64,000 bases of DNA from an uncultured Pelagibacteraceae bacterium (lineage in GTDB: Bacteria > Pseudomonadota > Alphaproteobacteria > Pelagibacterales > Pelagibacteraceae), in contig CACPQM010000001.1 in NCBI GenBank assembly GCA_902636075.1, forward strand, positions 124,001 through 188,000, written 5' to 3'. Position 1 is the first letter of the stretch. Every line of letters begins with the position of its first letter. The translations under genes and the position numbers were made by a program. Below the pieces are notes generated by a model. It did no database searches, was not told where the DNA came from, and saw only the letters and a program-made list of their open reading frames with translations. Shown in pieces: positions 279-47,959 of this stretch.

Positions 279-1748
279 TTATGGTAAGCAATCCAAGTAT
301 GTATCAAGATCCCATTGAGTTGTTGCTCCAAGAAATCTTTCCCACTCATCGTTTTTATACCAATGGAAAACTTTATACATTTCATCAGGCATTGCTGATT
401 TGATTACCTCATCCTCAGCAAGTCTATTTAACGCTTCACCAAGACTTAGTGGTAATTTTTTAACATCTTTACCAGCTTTTTGAGCTTCATAAATATTTCT
501 AGATTCAGGTTTAGCTGGTTTCATTTTTTTTGATATTCCCTCATCACAAGCTTTTAGCAAAGCTGCACCTAGTAAGTATGGATTATGCATTGAGTCAACA
601 GATCTATACTCAAATCTTCCAGGTGCTGAAACTCTTAATCCACATGTTCTATTTTGATATCCCCAGTCAGCATATACTGGTGCCCAAAAACCCTGGTCCC
701 ACAACCTTCGATATGAATTAACCGTAGATGATCCTAGAGCTGTCAAAGCTGGTAAATGTTTCATTATACCAGCAATTGATTGAAGTCCAATTTTTCCAGG
801 CAACTGCATATCCTTTGTGTCTGGCATAAAAGTGTTTGTTCCGCCAGATACATAACTAAACACTTCTTCAACTCCCGGAAGTTTTTTATTTCCTAATTTG
901 TTAACAGAAACTTTTCCACCTTTCCATAAAGACATGTTAGTGTGACATCCACTTGCAGATACACCCATGAACGGTTTAGTCATAAAGCAAGCTATTAGAT
1001 TGTTCTCTCTTGCAACTTGGGCACAAATTTGCCTATATGTTGATAATCTATCAGCATTTCTTAAAACATTATCATAAGTCCAATTAAGTTCTAGTTGTCC
1101 AGGAGCATCTTCATGATCACCTTGTATCATGTCCAATCCCATCGCTTTTGAATATTCTATTACTTTCATAAAAACTGGTCTCAAAGACTCGAATTGATCG
1201 ATATGATAACAAAAAGGTTTAGAAAAACCTTTACCAGTTGGAGTTCCATCATCATTTTTAGTTAACCACATCATTTCTGGTTCAGTGCCAACTCTTAATT
1301 CTAGTCCATGTTTCTTTTTAAATTCGTCACTAAAAATTCTTAAATTTCCTCTGCAATCAGAAGTTAAGTGTCCACCCGGATTTTTTCTCTCTTCTCTATT
1401 TCTAAAACATGTTACAAAAACTCTTCCAACTCTTTTATCCCATGGTAATTGCACAAACGTTTCTGGGTCTGGTATTCCCACCAACTCCATGGCTTCTGGT
1501 CCATAACCAATATAGTTATTGTGCCTGTCCAAAAATAAATTTGCTGTTGCTCCATATACTAATTGAAAACCTTTTTCAGCAGTCCTTTCCCAATGGTCTG
1601 CAGGGATACCTTTACCTACTACTCTACCTGTTACCGAAATAAATTGGTAATATATATAGGTTATTCCTAATTCGTTAATTTTTTCTCTTACTTTTTTAAC
1701 TAACTTTGCTCTACCTGGTTGATTTACATGTTTTTCTAGATCAGTCAT
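279..1748 (-). CDS. glnT: Type III glutamine synthetase family (GlnT; candidate gamma-glutamylmethylamide synthetase)
   Basis: A 489-residue ATP-dependent amide ligase that joins ammonia, or in GMAS methylamine, to glutamate. Catalytic-domain landmarks are visible: GTEPEMMW (metal-binding glutamate), GDHEDAPGQLELNW, GCHTNMSLW (ATP/metal histidine) and SSTVNSYRRLWD (glutamate-binding arginine). The N-terminal beta-grasp domain covers roughly residues 15-130. Its neighbours are a GlxB/MgsA-like amidotransferase downstream and an FAD oxidoreductase upstream, with tdm and tmm close by. In methylated-amine users a GlnT-like enzyme in this context is often GmaS, the first step of the N-methylglutamate route for monomethylamine. 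Sequence alone does not separate GmaS from glutamine synthetase III, so the methylamine role is an inference. Confidence 0.85.
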   Translation of the reverse strand: MTDLEKHVNQPGRAKLVKKVREKINELGITYIYYQFISVTGRVVGKGIPADHWERTAEKGFQLVYGATANLFLDRHNNYIGYGPEAMELVGIPDPETFVQLPWDKRVGRVFVTCFRNREERKNPGGHLTSDCRGNLRIFSDEFKKKHGLELRVGTEPEMMWLTKNDDGTPTGKGFSKPFCYHIDQFESLRPVFMKVIEYSKAMGLDMIQGDHEDAPGQLELNWTYDNVLRNADRLSTYRQICAQVARENNLIACFMTKPFMGVSASGCHTNMSLWKGGKVSVNKLGNKKLPGVEEVFSYVSGGTNTFMPDTKDMQLPGKIGLQSIAGIMKHLPALTALGSSTVNSYRRLWDQGFWAPVYADWGYQNRTCGLRVSAPGRFEYRSVDSMHNPYLLGAALLKACDEGISKKMKPAKPESRNIYEAQKAGKDVKKLPLSLGEALNRLAEDEVIKSAMPDEMYKVFHWYKNDEWERFLGATTQWDLDTYLDCLP

Positions 1749-24578: not shown

Positions 24579-25835
24579 ATGCAAAAATACTCTGTTTTTA
24601 GCCTCATTAAAAATGCATTCTCAGATCATCAGAATTGGGAAGTAGCATGGAAAGATCCAACTCCTAAAAAAGAATATGATGTGATTATCATAGGTGGCGG
24701 GGGTCATGGTTTAGCAACTGCATACTACTTAGCTAAGGAGCACAATATTACAAATGTAGCTATCATTGAAAAAGGCTGGATAGGTGGAGGTAATGTTGGA
24801 AGAAACACTACAATAATTAGATCAAACTATATGCATGATGACAATGCTTTGTTCAGTGAATTTGGTATGGATTTGTGGAGAAAGATGAGTCAGGATTTGA
24901 ATTACAATGTCATGTTTTCTCCAAGAGGAATAATAAATCTTGCCCATTCAGATGCACAAATGAATGCGTACTCTAGAAGAGGAAATTCAATGCGATTAAA
25001 TGGGATTGATGCAGTTTTATTAAATAGGGAAGAGGTTCAAAAAAAAATTCCAATGGCAGATTTTTCTGACAATGTGCGATTTCCAATTTTTGGAGGTTTG
25101 ATGCAACCAAGTGCTGGGACTGCTAGACACGATGCTGTTGCTTGGGGATATGCAAGACAAGCAGACTCAATGGGTGTTGACATAATTCAAAATTGTGAAG
25201 TTACAGGATTTGATGTTACTAACGGAAAAATAGTTGGTGTAAGAACTTCCAGAGGAGATATCAAAGCGAAAAAAGTTGGTTTGTGTGTTGCAGGTAGCAC
25301 AAATATTTTAGCAGAAATGTTAAATATGACACTACCAATTGAAACTCATCTCCTTCAAGCATGTGTATCAGAACCTGTAAAACCTTTGCTTGACCATGTA
25401 GTTACATTTGGTGCAGGTCACTTTTATTGTAGTCAATCAGATAAGGGAGAGATGGTTATGGGTGGAGACTTGGACGGATACAATAGTTACTCACAAAGAG
25501 GAAATTTACCAACACTCCAACACGTATTGACTGAAGGTATTGCAATGTTTCCATTTCTAAGCAAATTGAAAATGCTTAGAACTTGGGGTGGAATTATGGA
25601 TATGTCAATGGACGGTTCACCAATTATTGATAAAACACATATTGATGGCTTATACTTAAATTGTGGCTGGTGTTATGGTGGATTTAAAGCTACTCCTGCT
25701 TCAGGTTGGACTTTTGCACATACAATTGCGCAAGATAGAGTTCATGAATTAAACTCAGGTTACAGTTTAAATAGATTTAATACTGGTGATTTAATTGATG
25801 AAAAAGGTCTTGGTACCAAAACTTGGATATCTTAA
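24579..25835 (+). CDS. soxB: Heterotetrameric sarcosine oxidase beta subunit
   Basis: 418 residues. The FAD-binding fold is DVIIIGGGGHGLATAYYLA (about 34-52). His184 in AGTARHDAVAWG lines up with the histidine that binds FMN covalently in characterised SoxB. NCGWCYGGFKATPASG is the conserved C-terminal FAD contact. With SoxD, SoxA and SoxG it oxidises sarcosine to glycine, passing the methyl group to THF. The MgdABCD N-methylglutamate dehydrogenase has the same architecture, and with tdm, glnT and a glxB-like gene in the window that function is a serious alternative. First gene of the operon, 1 bp from soxD... adjacent without gap. Confidence 0.9.
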   Translation: MQKYSVFSLIKNAFSDHQNWEVAWKDPTPKKEYDVIIIGGGGHGLATAYYLAKEHNITNVAIIEKGWIGGGNVGRNTTIIRSNYMHDDNALFSEFGMDLWRKMSQDLNYNVMFSPRGIINLAHSDAQMNAYSRRGNSMRLNGIDAVLLNREEVQKKIPMADFSDNVRFPIFGGLMQPSAGTARHDAVAWGYARQADSMGVDIIQNCEVTGFDVTNGKIVGVRTSRGDIKAKKVGLCVAGSTNILAEMLNMTLPIETHLLQACVSEPVKPLLDHVVTFGAGHFYCSQSDKGEMVMGGDLDGYNSYSQRGNLPTLQHVLTEGIAMFPFLSKLKMLRTWGGIMDMSMDGSPIIDKTHIDGLYLNCGWCYGGFKATPASGWTFAHTIAQDRVHELNSGYSLNRFNTGDLIDEKGLGTKTWIS

Positions 25836-26105
25836 ATGCTCTATATATTCTGTCCACATTGTGGATCAAGATCACAGAATGAGTTTGCTTATGGCGGAGA
25901 TGCAACAGTAAAACGACCAGAGCTTAACAAGGAAATTAGTGACCAAGAGTGGAATAATTTTGTTTATTTAAGAAAAAGTCCTAGAGGAAAACACCTAGAG
26001 TTATGGCACCATATATCTGGCTGCAGACAATGGATAAAAGTTGAAAGAGATACTTCAACTCACGAGATTTTTAAAACCTATAAAGCAGATGAACTGACTG
26101 AATAA
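25836..26105 (+). CDS. soxD: Sarcosine oxidase delta subunit
   Basis: 89 residues, the usual SoxD size. Zinc ligands typical of SoxD are present: Cys6 and Cys9 in IFCPHCGSR, His59 and Cys63 in HHISGCRQW. FAYGGDATVKRP is a family signature. It bridges the alpha and beta subunits of the heterotetramer. It starts directly at the soxB stop and overlaps soxA by one base (TAATG), so subunit synthesis is coupled. Confidence 0.94.
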   Translation: MLYIFCPHCGSRSQNEFAYGGDATVKRPELNKEISDQEWNNFVYLRKSPRGKHLELWHHISGCRQWIKVERDTSTHEIFKTYKADELTE

Positions 26106-29101
26106 TGTCACAAGATTTTAGATTAGATAACATTGGAATGGTAAATAGAAATAAAAAAATTTCTTTTACATTTAATGGTAAAAAATATTTTGGTTATGAA
26201 GGAGATACTATTGCTTCTGCTTTAATAGCAAATGGAGTGCATCTTGTTGGGAGAAGTTTTAAATATCATAGACCTAGAGGTTTCTTTGGAGTTGGTGTTG
26301 ATGAACCTTATGCAATTTTACAATTAGAAAGAAATAATGAGAGAGATCCTAATATTAGAGCTACTGAACAGGAGATTTTTGAAGGTTTAGAGGTTAAAAG
26401 TGTAAATTGTTGGCCTAGTGTAAACTTTGATATTGGAGCAATTAATAATTTCTTAAAAATGTTTTTTCCAGCCGGGTTTTATTATAAAACTTTTATGTGG
26501 CCACCAAGTTTCTGGTACAAAATTTATGAACCTTTCATTAGAATGGCAGCAGGTTTTGGAGAAGCATCTATCAAACATGATAAAGAAAGATACGAGCATA
26601 AATATGAATATTGTGATTTATTAATCACTGGATCAGGACCTTCAGGTTTAGCTAGTGCATATGCAGCAGCAAAAAATGGTGCGCGTGTAATTTTAGCTGA
26701 AGACAAACCTAGGTACGGAGGTAGCTTGTTAACTAGTGATGTAAATATTGGTAATCAAACTGGTGCTGAATGGTCAGAGAAAATAATTACTGAGTTAAAG
26801 TCAATGTCAAATGTGATTGTAAAAAATAGATCACAAGTATTTGGTTATTATGATCATAATATGTTGGTAATGTCGGAACGAATAAGTGATCACTTGCCTA
26901 AAACCCAAAAATATTTACCTAAACAACGTTTGTGGTACATAAGAGCAAAAGAAGTTCTTATTTCATCAGGTTCAATTGAAAGACCATTAGTATTTGGTAA
27001 CAATGATACCCCAGGTGTAATGTTATCTTCGGCAGCTAAAGAATACATAAAGGTCTATGGAGTTTTAGTTGGGAAAAAACCTTTGATATTTACTAATAAT
27101 GACAGTGGATATGAAACCGCTATAGAGTTCAAAAAAAATGGTGTTAATCCATTAATTTTAGACACTAGAAAAGAACCATCTTCTGACATTATTACTGAAG
27201 CAAAAAATTTAGGAATTGAAATTAAATATTCTTATGTGGTAGTTGCTGCTAAAGGATACAAAAAAGTTAAATCAGCTGATATTGCAAAAATATCTGATAA
27301 TAAAAAAGATTTATCAAATATAGAAAATATTGAATGTGATTGTATTTGTGTTTCAGGGTTTTGGACGCCATCAATTCATTTAGCATCACAATCTGGAAAT
27401 AAATCTGAATTTAATGAGAAAATAGATGCATTCATTCCAAAAAAATCTAAACAGAAAGAAAATACTATTGGTTCAGCAAACGGTAAATTTACTTTAGAGG
27501 AAACTATTAATGAAGCATTCAATAAAGGATACGAAGTCTCAAACAAAATAACTGAAAATAATAATAAAGTTTCTGTTCCAACAGTAGTTGAAAAAAAATC
27601 TACAGAGCATGACAAGTTTTGGTGTGTTCCATTACCAAAAGGTAAATCTTACAAAAGATTTTTAGATTTTCAAAACGATGTGGCTGTATCAGATATAGAG
27701 TTGGCATTAAGAGAAGGTTTTAGATCAATCGAACATGTAAAAAGATATACCACCCTTGGAATGGCCACAGATCAAGGAAAAACAAGTAATCTTAATGGTT
27801 TACAATTAGTGTCAGACATTGAAAATAAAGTTGTACCACAAGTTGGCCACACAACATTTAGGCCACCTTATACACCTGTTTCAATTGGAGCAATTGTGGG
27901 AAGAGAAGTTGGCAAGCATTCTAAACCAACAAGAAAATCACCAATGCACGAGTGGCACGAAAAAAATAATGCAGTATTTGTTGATGCTGGAGTTTGGTTG
28001 AGACCAAGATACTATAAGCAAGGAAATGAAACATTATTTGAAGCCTCAAAAAGAGAAGCAAAAAATGTAAGAAAAAATGTAGGTGTATGTGATGTAACTA
28101 CTTTAGGAAAAATAGATGTTAAAGGTCCCGATGCTGCAGAATTTTTAAATAGAGTTTATACTAATGCATGGCTTAAACTTCCAGTTGGTAAAGCAAGATA
28201 TGGAGTGATGTTAAGAGAAGATGGAATTGTTATGGATGACGGAACAACAACAAGAATTTCTGAAAATCATTACCACATGACAACTACAACAGCTCAGGCG
28301 GCCAATGTCCTATCTCATTTAGAATATTATTTGCAACTAGTTTGGCCAGAATTAAATGTTAATGTGGTTTCAACAACAGAGCAGTGGGCTGGTGCTGCAA
28401 TAGCAGGCCCAAATTCAAGAGCATTACTAATGAAATTATTTCCAAATACCGATGTATCTAATGAAGGTCTCCCATTTATGGGTTACAAAGAGGCTGATTT
28501 ATTTGGTATTCCGGCAAAAATTTATAGAATTTCATTTTCAGGAGAACTTGCTTATGAAGTTAACGTGGAATCAGACTTTGGTAATTTCATGTGGGAAAAA
28601 ATTATTGAAGTTGGTAAAGAATTTCAAATACAGCCATATGGAACTGAGGCACTATCTACTTTAAGGATAGAAATGGGTCACGTTGCTGGCTCTGAGCTTG
28701 ATGGTAGAACAATTCCTCATGATGCATCGCTTGAAGGTTTAGTAAGTAAGAAAAAAGACTTTATTGGTAAAAGATCTTTAAGCAGATCAGCTTTTACAAA
28801 ACCAGATAGAGAAAAAATAGTAGGTGTTGTTCCATTAGACAAAACAACAAGTATTCCTGAAGGCTCATATATTGTTAAAGACCCTAAAGCAAAACTTCCA
28901 AACCCTAAATTAGGTCATGTCTCAGCATCATGTTGGAGTGTTGAGTATGATAATCCATTCTCACTTGCGATAATTAAAGATGGTAAAAATATGATAGGAC
29001 AAAAGCTATTTGCTATGTCACCTTTAAAAAACAAAACTATTCCTGTGGAAATTGTTTCATCGCATTATGTTGATCCTGAAGGAAAGAGAGTAAGAGCATG
29101 A
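26105..29101 (+). CDS. soxA: Sarcosine oxidase alpha subunit (FAD/NAD fold plus GcvT)
   Basis: 998 residues in the expected order. An N-terminal ubiquitin-like domain (FTFNGKKYFGYEGDTIASAL) is followed by a dinucleotide-binding region (LLITGSGPSGLASAYAAAKNGARV, about 172-195) and then the FAD/NAD domain to about residue 600. The C-terminal GcvT domain (about 625-998) includes ISFSGELAYEVNVESDFG and KDFIGKRSLSRSA. The GcvT part receives the methylene unit as 5,10-methylene-THF. It overlaps soxG by 4 bp (ATGA). N-methylglutamate dehydrogenase subunit MgdC is the alternative identity, having the same domain plan. Confidence 0.93.
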   Translation: MSQDFRLDNIGMVNRNKKISFTFNGKKYFGYEGDTIASALIANGVHLVGRSFKYHRPRGFFGVGVDEPYAILQLERNNERDPNIRATEQEIFEGLEVKSVNCWPSVNFDIGAINNFLKMFFPAGFYYKTFMWPPSFWYKIYEPFIRMAAGFGEASIKHDKERYEHKYEYCDLLITGSGPSGLASAYAAAKNGARVILAEDKPRYGGSLLTSDVNIGNQTGAEWSEKIITELKSMSNVIVKNRSQVFGYYDHNMLVMSERISDHLPKTQKYLPKQRLWYIRAKEVLISSGSIERPLVFGNNDTPGVMLSSAAKEYIKVYGVLVGKKPLIFTNNDSGYETAIEFKKNGVNPLILDTRKEPSSDIITEAKNLGIEIKYSYVVVAAKGYKKVKSADIAKISDNKKDLSNIENIECDCICVSGFWTPSIHLASQSGNKSEFNEKIDAFIPKKSKQKENTIGSANGKFTLEETINEAFNKGYEVSNKITENNNKVSVPTVVEKKSTEHDKFWCVPLPKGKSYKRFLDFQNDVAVSDIELALREGFRSIEHVKRYTTLGMATDQGKTSNLNGLQLVSDIENKVVPQVGHTTFRPPYTPVSIGAIVGREVGKHSKPTRKSPMHEWHEKNNAVFVDAGVWLRPRYYKQGNETLFEASKREAKNVRKNVGVCDVTTLGKIDVKGPDAAEFLNRVYTNAWLKLPVGKARYGVMLREDGIVMDDGTTTRISENHYHMTTTTAQAANVLSHLEYYLQLVWPELNVNVVSTTEQWAGAAIAGPNSRALLMKLFPNTDVSNEGLPFMGYKEADLFGIPAKIYRISFSGELAYEVNVESDFGNFMWEKIIEVGKEFQIQPYGTEALSTLRIEMGHVAGSELDGRTIPHDASLEGLVSKKKDFIGKRSLSRSAFTKPDREKIVGVVPLDKTTSIPEGSYIVKDPKAKLPNPKLGHVSASCWSVEYDNPFSLAIIKDGKNMIGQKLFAMSPLKNKTIPVEIVSSHYVDPEGKRVRA

Positions 29102-29685
29102 CGGTGATTTCTGCATTACAAAATGTCCATATCGAGGGGTCATTTGGAAACTTTGAAAATAAATCTGAAAATGAATTATTAAAAATTAAAGAATTAAAAA
29201 ATTTATTAATTGTTCAAATAGTTCAATATAAAAATTCTTCAATTAAAATTGACGATATAAATTTTAACAATTTAAAATTTGTAAATCAGGCACAAAAAGT
29301 AGTTTCAAATGAAAATATAAGAGTTTTGTGGAACTCACCAAATAATTGGCTTTTAGTTTCTCATGAAAAAGAATTGTTAAAAGAAATTTACAGTACTTAT
29401 AATGAAAATGATTTTGCTGTTACAGACCTTTCTCATTCAAAAGCAACAATCGAATTAGAAGGACCATACGTAAAAGAAGTTTTAAAAAAAGGATGTCCTT
29501 TTAATTTTAACATTTTAACAAAAAATATGAGTATTAACTCAGCTTATAATGGAATTTCTTTTATAGTTGATATGGTTGAAAATGAACCAGAAAAAGCAAG
29601 AATTTTTTCTCTAAGGAGTTTTGGAGAATCTCTATACCATTCTATCACTGATGCTTCTTTAGAATTTGGTTATAAGTGTAATTAG
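29098..29685 (+). CDS. soxG: Sarcosine oxidase gamma subunit
   Basis: 195 residues, last gene of soxBDAG. SoxG is a truncated GcvT-like fold that caps the complex and is poorly conserved. Recognisable parts are VLWNSPNNWLLVS, FAVTDLSHSKATIELEGPYVKEVLKKGCPFN and the C-terminal IFSLRSFGESLYHSITDASLEFGYK. Call rests on these together with position and ATGA coupling to soxA. It ends 3 bp before a convergent MFS gene. Confidence 0.9.
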   Translation: MTVISALQNVHIEGSFGNFENKSENELLKIKELKNLLIVQIVQYKNSSIKIDDINFNNLKFVNQAQKVVSNENIRVLWNSPNNWLLVSHEKELLKEIYSTYNENDFAVTDLSHSKATIELEGPYVKEVLKKGCPFNFNILTKNMSINSAYNGISFIVDMVENEPEKARIFSLRSFGESLYHSITDASLEFGYKCN

Positions 29686-34509: not shown

Positions 34510-35478
34510 ATGAACTATCGAATAGATAATCTTCAATATTGTAACTGGTCTAGAGATATTTTTCTCATCAATCGGGAAGCTGGATTAAATGCAGTGCACG
34601 TTACTCTAGTATATCACGAAGATTATGACGAGTTTTTACAAAGAGTTAAAGAGTGGGATAAATTTTTTGAAGAAAATTCAGATTTAATTTTTTTGGGAAA
34701 AACATTCGAAGATATTACAAAAGCACAATCTGATAACAAAACAGCAATTTTTTTTGGTTTTCAAAATTGTTCCCCAATCGAGGATGATATAAATTTAATA
34801 GAGAAAGTCCATGAGCATGGTTGTAGATTTATGCAACTTACTTATAATAATCAATCTCTTCTAGCCACAGGATGTTATGAAAAAAATGATTCTGGAGTCA
34901 CAAATTTTGGAAGAGAAGCAATTAAAGAGATGAATAGGGTAGGAATAGTTGTAGACATGTCTCATTCAGCAGAAAAAAGCACTTTAGATGCGATCGAAAT
35001 AAGCGAAAAACCAATTGCAATTACCCATGCAAATCCTTCTTTCTGGCATCAAGCTTTAAGAAATAAATCAGATTTCTTGTTAAAGAAACTTTCTGAAAGT
35101 GGAGGTATCTTAGGTTTATCATTATATTCTCATCATTTAAAAGATGGAACAAATTGTAAATTAGAAAGTTTTTGTGAAATGGTTGCTAAAACAGCAGAAA
35201 TAATGGAAGTAAAAAATATTGGTATTGGGTCAGATCTATGTTTGAACCAACCTGACAGTGTTGTTGAATGGATGAGAAACGGAACTTGGTCTAAAAGTAC
35301 AAATTATGGAGAGGGAAGTAAAAAAAAACCTGGATTTCCAAAACAACCTGACTGGTTTTTGGATGCTAGAGGGTTTAATAATTTAGAAAGTGGATTAAAA
35401 AAAATTGGTTTTAATAAGCAAGAAGTAGAAGGAATTTTAGGAAATAATTGGTTTAATTTTTATAAAGGAATTAATTAA
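34510..35478 (+). CDS. Divergent peptidase M19 (membrane/renal dipeptidase family) protein
   Basis: 322 residues from ATG 34510; the track begins at an upstream TTG. The M19 fold is visible in IVVDMSHSAEKSTLDAIE, PIAITHANPSFWH and NIGIGSDLCLNQ, which supply two histidines and an aspartate. The N-terminal His-x-Asp zinc pair is replaced by LQYCNWSRDIF, and the usual glutamate region is GFQNCSPIED. The two-zinc site therefore looks altered. Family members cleave dipeptides with a C-terminal D or unusual residue. It is coupled by TAATG to a 551-aa unknown gene and heads a four-gene operon. The reaction is uncertain. Confidence 0.8.
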   Translation: MNYRIDNLQYCNWSRDIFLINREAGLNAVHVTLVYHEDYDEFLQRVKEWDKFFEENSDLIFLGKTFEDITKAQSDNKTAIFFGFQNCSPIEDDINLIEKVHEHGCRFMQLTYNNQSLLATGCYEKNDSGVTNFGREAIKEMNRVGIVVDMSHSAEKSTLDAIEISEKPIAITHANPSFWHQALRNKSDFLLKKLSESGGILGLSLYSHHLKDGTNCKLESFCEMVAKTAEIMEVKNIGIGSDLCLNQPDSVVEWMRNGTWSKSTNYGEGSKKKPGFPKQPDWFLDARGFNNLESGLKKIGFNKQEVEGILGNNWFNFYKGIN

Positions 35479-37133
35479 TGGAAATAAGATTAAGAGATCC
35501 AAAATTTTTGATGAAACTATCTAAATTGGGGTCTTTTCATCAATCAAAATTATCATTTCTAAGATCTTTTTTATCTGAATTTAAAGATTGGAAGTATAGC
35601 CGAGATTTATTTCAACTAAATGACAAAGGACATGGTAGAGCAGTTTACTCATTTACAAAAAACAAAAGAACATATTCTCTCATTTGTTTTGCTAGTGAAA
35701 TCAATGATGATGAAAGATCAGATAGAGTAATAGCCACTAAGTGGGATGCTGCTTTTACCTTATTTGATGGAATTCCATCAAAAGAAGACATAGATAGACT
35801 TAACAATAATGTTCCAAAACAAGAGGTTGGAAGACTTTCGTATAAGGAATTAACGTTATCAAGAGCTAACAAGTCAGTAAGAGTTTTCGACCATGTGGTT
35901 GACAGTTTATCAAATGGAGATCAACCTAATAAAGAAATTTTATCAAAGGTTGGGTATTTATATAGAACAACAGCAGTTTATGGATCAGGAAAATTTGGTT
36001 TAGCAGACAGGTTTAGAATTAAAAATAGAGAGGAAATCAGAGGACCTTTTAGATTAGAGATGATGCTAGTATATCTCGTTAGACAATTTACATTTGATCA
36101 GGTTAATCATATTGCAAAAAATAAAAATCCAAAACTAGCAGTAGAATTAGATCCTTCAATCAGCAGGAACTTAGGAATAGGAAATTCTACTGGCCTTGGC
36201 ATGGCTCCTTTTATTGTTAATCATCCTACTTTGTTGAATAATTGGATACATGCAAGAGAAACTGCTTTGAAACAAATAAGAGAAATAGAGCGAGTTTCAA
36301 AAAATGAGATTGATATTTTTTATAATTGCCTAATTAAATCTTTAAAGAATATAACCAGTTGGCACACAGATAGCGAATTTCAAAAAGAAAAAATCAAAGG
36401 TTTAATTGTCGATTTAAAAAAGTTTATTAAATTTATGAAAGAAGATTTTAAATTTCAAAATTCATATCAATTTAATCAAATTTACAACTGGTCAGAGGAA
36501 AATTTAAATGATGAATGTATAGAATATATTGTATCTATGATGATGGAGCCATTTGATGACATAGTTAATCCATTGATTACTCAAATGAGTTCTGATGAGG
36601 AAGAACATTTTAACATTCCTGTTGATAGAACTATTGAAGATTTAAGAAACATATTAGAAAATAAATATTCTGAAATACTTAAAATTGATTTTTTAAAAGA
36701 CGAAAATAATCAAAACTTTTGGTTTATATCAAAAAATAAAGAAGAGCCTAGAATAGGAGACAGATATATTGATGAGGGATCTGATTTAGAACAGCCATTA
36801 GCAATAGCAAGAGACATAAATAAACTTTATGATGCTGTATTTACAAAAAAAAATAGTTCTAAAATTGGTAAATTTTTAAAAGATAATAATCATTTAAGAC
36901 ACGTTGTCAGAAGAGCATTTATTGCAGAAAAGTTTCCTTATTCAGAAATCCAAGACAATACAATTGGGTCCAAACTAGTTCCAATTGATATGTTAAGATT
37001 AAAATTATCATTTTTTGGAGCTATAAAGTTTGATCCTAGATCAGATAAATGGTTGCGTATTTGCATGTTCCAAGGAGCACCTTTGCCTTCAGAATTGCGA
37101 AATTTTGATGATAAATGGATTTATAAATCATAA
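35478..37133 (+). CDS. Conserved-looking 551-residue protein of unknown function
   Basis: 551 residues, soluble, no signal peptide. Distinctive segments are SDRVIATKWDAAFTLFDGIP, GYLYRTTAVYGSGKFGLADR, FRLEMMLVYLVRQFTFDQVNHIA, GNSTGLGMAPFIVNHP and the C-terminal FGAIKFDPRSDKWLRICMFQGAPLP. The glycine-rich GNSTGLGMAPF stretch could be a ligand loop. Low-complexity is absent and codon use matches neighbours, so it is a real enzyme-sized gene. I do not recognise the family. It is coupled to the M19-like gene (TAATG) and lies 4 bp before a DUF3726 gene; the three probably act together. Confidence 0.7.
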   Translation: MEIRLRDPKFLMKLSKLGSFHQSKLSFLRSFLSEFKDWKYSRDLFQLNDKGHGRAVYSFTKNKRTYSLICFASEINDDERSDRVIATKWDAAFTLFDGIPSKEDIDRLNNNVPKQEVGRLSYKELTLSRANKSVRVFDHVVDSLSNGDQPNKEILSKVGYLYRTTAVYGSGKFGLADRFRIKNREEIRGPFRLEMMLVYLVRQFTFDQVNHIAKNKNPKLAVELDPSISRNLGIGNSTGLGMAPFIVNHPTLLNNWIHARETALKQIREIERVSKNEIDIFYNCLIKSLKNITSWHTDSEFQKEKIKGLIVDLKKFIKFMKEDFKFQNSYQFNQIYNWSEENLNDECIEYIVSMMMEPFDDIVNPLITQMSSDEEEHFNIPVDRTIEDLRNILENKYSEILKIDFLKDENNQNFWFISKNKEEPRIGDRYIDEGSDLEQPLAIARDINKLYDAVFTKKNSSKIGKFLKDNNHLRHVVRRAFIAEKFPYSEIQDNTIGSKLVPIDMLRLKLSFFGAIKFDPRSDKWLRICMFQGAPLPSELRNFDDKWIYKS

Positions 37134-37137
37134 ATAA

Positions 37138-37746
37138 ATGAGAAGCTTTAGTGAAATAGAAGTAACTACAAAAAAAGCATCTAAAGCTATTGGTTTTTCT
37201 TGGGGAGTATCAGAGGAGGTTGGAAAAAATATTCGATTACTAGAAATGTTTGGACTACCAGGTCTTAAAAATTTAAACCAATACTACAAAATTTATAAAA
37301 TCAGTAATTTTGAAAATATTGATGAAATATCGGTCTCAAATACTCCAAAGACTTTTTATTGTCCTATATCATCTGGATTAAATTTTTTTGATCAATCTTC
37401 ATCAATATCTAAATTCAATGAAATTGAAATTAATAAGATTGCTTTTCCACTTATATTTTTATCATTTGTAAGCAGAACTTCAGAAATTATTGGTAAGAGA
37501 ATTTTTTTAAAGATGGATGATAAAGAATTTTTATTTAATTTTAACGAGTCTATTTATTCAAACTATCTAACAGGAGATGTATTGGAAAAATCAGATAAAA
37601 TTAACTTAAAATTTTTAGATAATAAGAACAGTTTTACTGAAGATGATTGGTCTGAAATTTATAATTTATCTCTAAAAACTTACGTCGATGAAAGTGATAA
37701 ATCGAGGGAACGAACAGCAGGAGCTGGATTAACAGATAATGACTAA
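37138..37746 (+). CDS. DUF3726 family protein
   Basis: 202 residues. The N-terminus (SEIEVTTKKASKAIGFSWGVSEEVGKNIRLLE) and the conserved C-terminal tail (SRERTAGAGLTDND) fit DUF3726, a family with no known function. The RxxxAGAGLTDND end reads like an interaction or cofactor motif. It sits 4 bp after the 551-aa gene and overlaps the next tiny gene by 8 bp. The family call is from memory and is moderate. Confidence 0.7.
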   Translation: MRSFSEIEVTTKKASKAIGFSWGVSEEVGKNIRLLEMFGLPGLKNLNQYYKIYKISNFENIDEISVSNTPKTFYCPISSGLNFFDQSSSISKFNEIEINKIAFPLIFLSFVSRTSEIIGKRIFLKMDDKEFLFNFNESIYSNYLTGDVLEKSDKINLKFLDNKNSFTEDDWSEIYNLSLKTYVDESDKSRERTAGAGLTDND

Positions 37747-37906
37747 AGAATATGATGCAGAATTAAATAAGAATTTAGAAGCAGATTTAAATGATATTTG
37801 TGAAGAGTGTAAAAAAGAAGATGAAAGTGTAACTCAAAATTTATTCCTTACTGGTTTTAAAATATGCAAATCTTGCAGAACATCTAAAACTGTTTTTCCT
37901 TTTTAG
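37739..37906 (+). CDS. Tiny CxxC-CxxC protein (55 aa), last gene of the M19-like operon
   Basis: Absent from the ORF track because of its size. ATG at 37739 overlaps the DUF3726 stop; it encodes 55 residues ending TAG at 37906. It starts MTKEYDAELNKNLEADL and carries two Cys pairs, ICEECKK and ICKSCRTS, spaced by about 20 residues, which suggests a small zinc ribbon. Overlap with DUF3726 and lack of frame breaks support a real gene. It ends convergently, overlapping the Yip1 gene by 4 bp. Function unknown; a zinc or partner-binding subunit is possible. Confidence 0.7.
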   Translation: MTKEYDAELNKNLEADLNDICEECKKEDESVTQNLFLTGFKICKSCRTSKTVFPF

Positions 37907-38448
37907 CTAATATTACTAATTGGAATTGAATTCATTCTATTAATTATGAAAGTTATAGATAGGAACGCTATTATTAGAAAAGATAAAAATACTATTCCAA
38001 ATGATTTTAAATTAGATTTTAAATTCAAAATTTGTTTTGTTGATATTATGAGAGATGCAAAAATCCAAAATTGAGTAAGGAAAATAATTGGTAGAACTAA
38101 GTCAGGTGTTACTGCAAAAAACCTAATTAAACCTGGCGCATGAGCATATCCCACAGCTATTAAAATTTTTTTGAAAGGCACCTTATTCCCTTTATCTGGA
38201 AAAATTTTTACTCCAATTACAAAAATAAAAATAGCCCAAACAAACCATGTTAATAGAGCTGTCAAGCCTGAGATGCCAATTGATGTTCTCACAATTGAAT
38301 TTGCCGCTACTGCTCCCGCAACACCATCAAGTATCATTACAAGACCAGCAAAATAGATTGCAGCCTCACCAAAGTATTTATTATCTCTATATAAGCTTTT
38401 ATCTAATTTTAAAGATTTAAAAAAAATTTCTAAAAATTGTGCGAACAT
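37903..38448 (-). CDS. Yip1-family integral membrane protein
   Basis: 181 residues with about five hydrophobic helices (for example IYFAGLVMILDGVAGAV, LTALLTWFVWAIFIFVIGVKIF, LVLPIIFLTQFWIFASLIIST, IVFLSFLIIAFLSITFI). The arrangement, with a KILIAVGYAHAPGLIRF segment in the middle, fits bacterial Yip1-domain proteins. It follows the GcvT-like gene on the minus strand after a hairpin. The function of bacterial Yip1 proteins is poorly known. Confidence 0.75.
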   Translation of the reverse strand: MFAQFLEIFFKSLKLDKSLYRDNKYFGEAAIYFAGLVMILDGVAGAVAANSIVRTSIGISGLTALLTWFVWAIFIFVIGVKIFPDKGNKVPFKKILIAVGYAHAPGLIRFFAVTPDLVLPIIFLTQFWIFASLIISTKQILNLKSNLKSFGIVFLSFLIIAFLSITFIINRMNSIPISNIS

Positions 38449-46783: not shown

Positions 46784-47959
46784 ATGTCAGCAATTTATAA
46801 AATTATAGATAAAAAAAAATTAGATATAGTTAAGAAATCAATTTCAAAAGCACATGGACTCCCCAACGAATGTTATACAAGTAAAGATTATACTTTAATA
46901 GAAAGAGAGAAAATATTTGAAAATAAATGGACTGTAATAGGAGTAGCAAGTTCTTTGCCAAATATCGGCGATGTAAAACCATTTAACTTGTTAGGACTGC
47001 CATTATTTTTAGTAAGGAATAAAAAAGATCAGATAAAAGTTTTTCATAACGTCTGTAGTCATAGAGGAGTAAAGCTAGTAAACAAAAAAGGCAATATTAG
47101 AAATGTTATCAGATGTCCTTATCATTCATGGTCATACACATCAGATGGAAAGCTAATTGCAACACCTCATATAGGTGGGATGAACCAACATAGTAGCCCA
47201 AAATTTAAAAAAAATAAAAACAATTTAAAAGAAATAAGATCATGTGTTTGGTTAGATTTAATTTTTATTAATATTAGTAACAACGAAATTCCATTTGAAA
47301 AATATATTAAACCCTTAAGTGATAGGTGGGCTAAATTTTGGAAAAAAAAAGATAGAAAATTAATTAATCATGCAAATGATTTTGGTTATTTTAAAATAAA
47401 TGCAAAATGTAATTGGAAATTTGCAATTGAAAATTATTGTGAAAGTTATCATTTGCCATGGGTTCATCCAGGTTTAAATTCTTATTCAAAAATTGAAGAT
47501 CACTATCATATTCAAGGATTACCAAACCGCTTTGCAGGCCAAGGCACAGTTGTTTACAATCCAAAATTTAAAGGTAAGAAAAAATTTCCTTGCTTTCCTA
47601 ACTGGCCCAAAGAAAAAGAAAATATTGCAGAGTATGTAGCTTTGTTTCCCAATGTTATGTTAGGTATACATAAAGATCATTTCTACGCATATTGGTTAGA
47701 ACCTATTAGTCATAAAAAAACCTTAGAGCATATGGAAATATATTACGTAGGTGAAAAAGCCTCAAAATCATTAGAGTTTAAACCATTAAGAAAACAAAAT
47801 CATAAATTGTGGGAAGATATTCAAAAAGAAGATGTTGGTATAATTCAAAGAATGCAATTAGGCCGCAACTCACATGCATATAATGGTGGAAATTTTTCTC
47901 CTGATATGGATAATCCAACACATCAATTTCACAAGTGGGTGGCAACTCACATTGTGTAG
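46784..47959 (+). CDS. Rieske aromatic-ring-type oxygenase, GbcA/choline-monooxygenase-like
   Basis: 391 residues. The Rieske 2Fe-2S site is VCSHRGVKLVNKKGNIRNVIRCPYHSW (CxH and CxxH). The mononuclear iron site is in ENYCESYHLPWVHPGL, with a C-terminal acidic ligand expected in HKLWEDIQKEDVG. It resembles GbcA-type glycine betaine monooxygenases and choline monooxygenases, which remove one N-methyl as formaldehyde. No matching reductase is nearby. The presence of BHMT beside it would make glycine betaine demethylation redundant, so another quaternary amine (for example proline betaine or carnitine) is possible. It overlaps the SET gene frame at the end but not the SET start at 47974. Confidence 0.82.
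   Translation: MSAIYKIIDKKKLDIVKKSISKAHGLPNECYTSKDYTLIEREKIFENKWTVIGVASSLPNIGDVKPFNLLGLPLFLVRNKKDQIKVFHNVCSHRGVKLVNKKGNIRNVIRCPYHSWSYTSDGKLIATPHIGGMNQHSSPKFKKNKNNLKEIRSCVWLDLIFINISNNEIPFEKYIKPLSDRWAKFWKKKDRKLINHANDFGYFKINAKCNWKFAIENYCESYHLPWVHPGLNSYSKIEDHYHIQGLPNRFAGQGTVVYNPKFKGKKKFPCFPNWPKEKENIAEYVALFPNVMLGIHKDHFYAYWLEPISHKKTLEHMEIYYVGEKASKSLEFKPLRKQNHKLWEDIQKEDVGIIQRMQLGRNSHAYNGGNFSPDMDNPTHQFHKWVATHIV

Follow-up and report, generated by a model that had tools for sequence, protein, structure and literature searches.

A three-gene unit encoding an M19-like protein, a 551-residue protein (P551) and a DUF3726 protein is genuine, old and widely shared among proteobacteria, and it is likely (probability roughly 0.7) to be part of a homarine-type pathway. 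Homarine, N-methylpyridinium-2-carboxylate, is a nitrogen compound that algae produce. The trio probably belongs to a recently published homarine system rather than to a new one, and its core enzyme, P551, has no known family. SAR11 bacteria rank among Earth's most abundant organisms, and if the proposal is true, the unit couples homarine, a major algal osmolyte, to their nitrogen and one-carbon economy. In that case P551 would be a catalytic protein that lacks known relatives, and DUF3726 would have both a structural identity and a partner assigned to it.

The genes were found in a 64,000-nucleotide stretch of SAR11 DNA (the window), and are listed in Table 1 together with two neighbours. Genes for TMA, DMSP and betaine metabolism share the window with them. 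The M19-like and P551 genes are joined at the sequence TAATG with a 1-bp overlap, P551 and DUF3726 are separated by a 4-bp gap, and DUF3726 overlaps a gene for a small CxxC protein by 8 bp. The coordinates and the junction sequence agree with the four open reading frames and three junctions described in the initial annotation. Its reading of them as a four-gene operon stands for the M19-like, P551 and DUF3726 genes and falls for the CxxC gene, which is placed there by position only.

Table 1. Genes of the trio and neighbouring features, in window positions
Feature	Position	Strand	Basis
soxBDAG/mgdABCD-like operon, candidate N-methylglutamate dehydrogenase	24579..29685	+	TIGR01372/TIGR01373 over cut-off
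M19-like protein, 322 aa	34510..35478	+	PF01244 E=2e-67
P551, 551 aa	35478..37133	+	ORF; without family match
DUF3726 protein, 202 aa	37138..37746	+	PF12525 E=2.3e-19
CxxC miniprotein, 55 aa, Cys4 motif	37739..37906	+	ORF; without family match

Conservation of the trio and its operon outside SAR11

DUF3726 is present in 43 of 385 alphaproteobacterial genomes. P551 adjoins it in all 40 of the alphaproteobacterial neighbourhoods examined (40/40), and the M19-like gene is there in 36 of them. A P551 profile matches 53 of the same 385 genomes, the 43 with DUF3726 among them, and 29 of 399 genomes taken phylum-wide, nine of which lie outside Alphaproteobacteria. In a separate collection of Pelagibacteraceae loci the order M19-P551-DUF3726 is kept in 80 of 80, with gaps mostly of -4 to +10 bp (one contig ends within DUF3726), and this order and tight spacing place the arrangement far beyond chance. 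P551 is carried by 45 of the 77 good-quality genomes of Pelagibacteraceae. One P551 copy (L131, 10001-11650) has an internal stop, with M19, DUF3726 and CxxC still present.

The three genes are neighbours across Alpha- and Gammaproteobacteria, which bears out the single functional unit claimed in the initial annotation as far as these three are concerned; finding them rarely adjacent outside SAR11 was one of the two outcomes it had named as counting against it. P551 and DUF3726 are fused into one 814-aa protein in Mesorhizobium sp. 131-2-1. This fusion, along with the constant adjacency, is good evidence that P551 and DUF3726 form a two-subunit complex, with M19 as a pathway or complex partner.

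Outside SAR11 the trio lies in an operon made up of a LysR regulator, an aldehyde dehydrogenase (ALDH), M19, in some loci a BCCT betaine importer, P551, DUF3726 and an Ldh-family reductase. The operon is annotated whole or nearly so in Phaeobacter (strain Phaeobacter inhibens 2.10), Tritonibacter, Aliiroseovarius, Aminobacter and Mesorhizobium. Its locus tags are PGA2_RS18655-18625 in Phaeobacter and K3X22_RS15180-15205 in Aliiroseovarius. The set LysR-ALDH-M19-BCCT-P551-DUF3726, lacking Ldh, is found in gammaproteobacterial loci and in Vibrio campbellii, where the last gene was assigned by position. The M19 gene was absent from the ORF calls in one gammaproteobacterial locus and in Caballeronia. 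The operon ALDH is nearest to 2-oxoglutarate-semialdehyde dehydrogenases, at scores below their cut-offs.

The importers linked to the trio are BCCT, a glycine-betaine ABC importer (Aminobacter) and OpuA-like genes, which suggests that the substrate is a betaine-like zwitterion. Where the initial annotation had allowed for a biosynthetic or a degradative pathway, the trio looks degradative; a biosynthetic role is disfavoured by its partners: a betaine-type importer, the ALDH, the Ldh-family reductase and LysR. Next to the trio operon of Phaeobacter inhibens 2.10 and of Aliiroseovarius lies a soxBDAG/mgdABCD-like operon with an AraC regulator, and in Phaeobacter inhibens DSM 17395 a copy of the trio operon adjoins DMSP demethylation genes. 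The AraC-soxBDAG layout matches the tmaR-mgdABCD layout given in PMC13390433.

A second subtype or copy of P551-DUF3726 was seen in Rhodobacterales-type genomes (L191, L192, L193), some of which carry both subtypes. It has different neighbours and possibly another substrate. A Rieske oxygenase weakly like GbcA is encoded at 46784-47956 of the window. A Rieske cluster also turns up close to the trio in about five further genomes and could serve the same pathway or a betaine pathway.

The proposed pathway and its SAR11 version

What was observed is the linkage of the genes alone, and each chemical step is inferred. The trio would supply three of the five enzymes of an operon that breaks down a zwitterion with a quaternary nitrogen, homarine being the most likely one. 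P551, with DUF3726 as a non-redox partner subunit, would attack and open the N-methylpyridinium ring. This would yield a 5-carbon aldehyde, which the ALDH would oxidise, and leave behind an N-formyl group or its equivalent. Deformylation, by hydrolysis of the C-N bond, would fall to the M19-like protein, whose two remaining His perhaps hold a single metal. The Ldh-family enzyme, from a family that includes reductases of cyclic and N-methyl imines, would reduce the resulting N-methylimine to N-methylglutamate, and Mgd would convert this to glutamate and a one-carbon unit for folate. The exact chemistry of this scheme is tentative at best, and we would put it below an even chance.

Ferrer-Gonzalez et al. 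2026 (Nat Microbiol 11:1531) are said to describe a homarine catabolic operon, homABCDER, with five enzymes and a regulator, and the pathway reportedly yields N-methylglutamate and glutamate. The trio operon best fits this hom operon, judging by gene content, the Mgd link and the gene set reported for it: the gene number matches ALDH, M19, P551, DUF3726 and Ldh plus LysR, and the link to Mgd is common to both. SAR11 differs in having three of the five genes together, without an adjacent LysR. The literature searched contained no assay of any trio enzyme and no mention of DUF3726, of PA5396 with dipeptidase, or of homABCDER.

The choice of N-methylglutamate as the product comes from the adjoining mgdABCD-like operon with its AraC gene and from the published link of Mgd to homarine; PMC13390433 reports a role for Mgd in the breakdown of homarine and refers to a 2026 paper on a conserved homarine pathway. 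The loci show a conserved multi-gene catabolic operon with a regulator and a link to mgd, provided that the linked soxBDAG genes are mgd. They are candidate Mgd genes, with sarcosine oxidase as the alternative.

Some other quaternary or N-methylated nitrogen compound, such as trigonelline or a proline-type betaine, may instead be degraded by the trio, with an end product other than N-methylglutamate, which we regard as unlikely. The importers are of a kind general to betaines. The nearest M19 structure, 2i5g, is PA5396 of a dimethylglycine gene cluster. Distant copies come with putrescine-type ABC transporters, an aminotransferase and succinate-semialdehyde dehydrogenase, so the chemistry is not confined to a single substrate. 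The mgdABCD-like operon with AraC, and the Mgd-homarine link published in PMC13390433, point to N-methylglutamate.

Trigonelline degradation (trg genes, Acinetobacter) resembles the proposed pathway in breaking down an N-methylated pyridine carboxylate through an N-formyl intermediate with an aldehyde dehydrogenase, but uses a flavin monooxygenase pair instead of P551/DUF3726; those monooxygenase genes are absent from the annotated loci.

Substrates seem to vary within the P551 superfamily, since in distant relatives (~28-35% identity) P551 and M19 have putrescine-type ABC importers as partners. On pSymB of Sinorhizobium meliloti (L161, 8947-12393), distant P551-like, ~240-aa and M19-like proteins are encoded with a putrescine-type ABC importer, in a cluster that also holds an aminotransferase and a semialdehyde dehydrogenase.

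Returning to the homarine-type pathway, its SAR11 version would keep only the trio together and draw its reductase and aldehyde dehydrogenase from genes elsewhere. The hom gene set is incomplete around the SAR11 trio, with ALDH and Ldh not adjacent to it. A search of SAR11 for the operon ALDH gave no close orthologue (best 36%). A candidate unlinked Ldh2 (34%) was found in 18 of the 21 trio-bearing SAR11 genomes and in 3 of the 15 that lack the trio (Fisher p=1.2e-4, a value that ignores relatedness), and on this co-occurrence it could be the reductase that is missing. In the genome under study this Ldh2-family gene stands alone at G000:C8:63795-64793 (L225, 7796-8794). One Ldh2 candidate of the genome (L152), whose extracted reading frame was that of a hydrolase, was left out.

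The genome under study has two soxBDAG-like operons. The one in Table 1, 5 kb upstream of the trio, is slightly closer than the second copy to the trio-linked copies of other bacteria, and we suggest that it would finish the pathway. A gmaS-like gene is also present in the genome, as are genes that resemble mgsABC when read by eye (window 282-1748 and L168).

The CxxC miniprotein gene

The CxxC reading frame is a real conserved gene. It was found in 75 of the 80 Pelagibacteraceae trio loci, and its four Cys are invariant in 33 aligned sequences; neither Pfam nor NCBIfam has a family that matches the protein. The initial annotation proposed it as a zinc or partner subunit, which would make the trio part of a four-subunit system. 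The invariant Cys4 speaks for such a system, as does the 8-bp overlap with DUF3726, which nearly all of the 75 loci preserve, but the distribution of the gene contradicts it and leaves it very improbable. The gene is absent beside the trio in all 38 non-SAR11 loci, and the CxxC profile matches SAR11 only (3/372 genomes, all of the same genus as the window). Within SAR11 it occurs without P551 in genomes G791, G853, G747, G757, G375 and G754, and apart from P551 in G297, G790, G746 and G751, while four SAR11 loci have no CxxC gene after the trio.

The usual neighbour of the CxxC gene is Yip1 rather than DUF3726. Yip1 is its convergent neighbour in 8 of the 10 loci that lack the trio or have it elsewhere, mostly followed by dmdA. 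The order in G791 and G853 is purE, CxxC, Yip1, dmdA, with the trio missing between purE and CxxC. The overlap with DUF3726 is therefore positional, and the CxxC gene belongs with the convergent Yip1 gene, outside the trio unit. Its membership of the unit is ruled out by its occurrence without the trio, its occurrence away from the trio and its SAR11-only range; taking the protein out of the model avoids a wrong complex. Positions 37739-38448 of the window thus hold a pair in its own right: a SAR11-specific gene for a Cys4 miniprotein (~43-63 aa) and a convergent gene for a Yip1-family membrane protein, usually located by dmdA.

Predicted properties of the three proteins

P551 matches no Pfam or NCBIfam family, and the other 36 relatives searched gave no consistent Pfam match. 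A P551 profile had no credible match in the PDB, and the P551 model, used as query against solved folds, matched no known fold (best match E=0.3, probability 0.05). Membership of a known family was ruled out on the combined result of Pfam (37 members), NCBIfam, the PDB profile search and the fold search, so the second outcome that the initial annotation had named against itself, that P551 belongs to a known and unrelated enzyme family, did not come about. The P551 model is of moderate quality (pLDDT 75, pTM 0.80), and several of the most conserved loops are among its least confident parts; both this model and that of DUF3726 were built from SAR11 relatives only, which limits their confidence.

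Nine Arg are invariant across 63 P551 relatives: R6, R83, R119, R163, R202, R425, R479, R507 and R527. The same 63 sequences have no conserved Cys or His cluster. No cofactor motif was recognised in P551, and its neighbouring genes include no reductase that could serve an oxygenase. P551 and DUF3726, perhaps with the M19-like protein, may be a ring-opening enzyme of a new kind that acts on N-methylpyridinium and combines a fold unlike those of solved structures with a dehydrogenase partner devoid of redox function; related copies, found with other transporters, would have other nitrogen compounds as substrates. This is a possibility to which we give somewhat less than even odds.

The DUF3726 protein scores 69.5 bits against PF12525 (gathering cut-off 22.1) and ends in the tail AGAGLTDND. 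There is moderate evidence that it has a shortened type-2 malate/lactate dehydrogenase (Ldh2) fold. Its model (pLDDT 88) has 16 best PDB fold matches that all belong to the Ldh2 superfamily, with probability 0.96-1.0, E of ~0.01-0.07 and TMq of 0.39-0.54. A local profile alignment (hhalign) matches its first 56 residues to the N-terminal end of the operon's Ldh protein at P=0.0016; four controls gave 0.4-0.9. The Pfam Ldh_2 family gave no match. The protein thus seems to share its fold with the Ldh2 superfamily (PF02615; YiaK, AllD, DpkA), and its N-terminal helices align by profile, but it has ~200 aa where that superfamily has 330-360. An active dehydrogenase of that superfamily has a catalytic Ser-His-Gly motif and an NAD(P)-binding domain; in DUF3726 the motif position reads L-P-G, and the protein is ~130 aa shorter. 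With that motif and ~130 residues absent, DUF3726 is probably a partner without redox activity.

The M19-like protein is related to the TIM-barrel dipeptidases. It matches PF01244 over its full length (residues 22-317), and its nearest solved structure is 2i5g (9e-52), that of PA5396, sited in a dimethylglycine gene cluster. It shares with peptidase family M19 two His ligands, an Arg and the catalytic Asp: His152, His173, Arg184 and Asp242 in its own numbering, equivalent to His198, His219, Arg230 and Asp288 of renal dipeptidase. It differs from that family in that His-x-Asp is gone, the bridging Glu is replaced by Gln and the third active-site His by Tyr in 48 of 48 relatives, so that two His are what is kept of the binuclear zinc ligand set (His-x-Asp, Glu, His, His). 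The initial annotation was right that the His-x-Asp zinc pair had been lost, and the bridging Glu has gone with it. The aligned part of 2i5g shows the same pattern of loss. The protein is unlikely, on these residues, to hold the usual two zinc ions.

The PF01244 match might suggest an ordinary membrane dipeptidase in a peptide-processing operon, but this is scarcely credible for the M19-like protein, given these replaced ligands and operon partners unrelated to peptides. Some amidohydrolases, such as E. coli NagA, work with one metal. The ligand pattern of the M19-like protein resembles theirs, which suggests that it is possibly a hydrolase and unlikely to be a normal dipeptidase.
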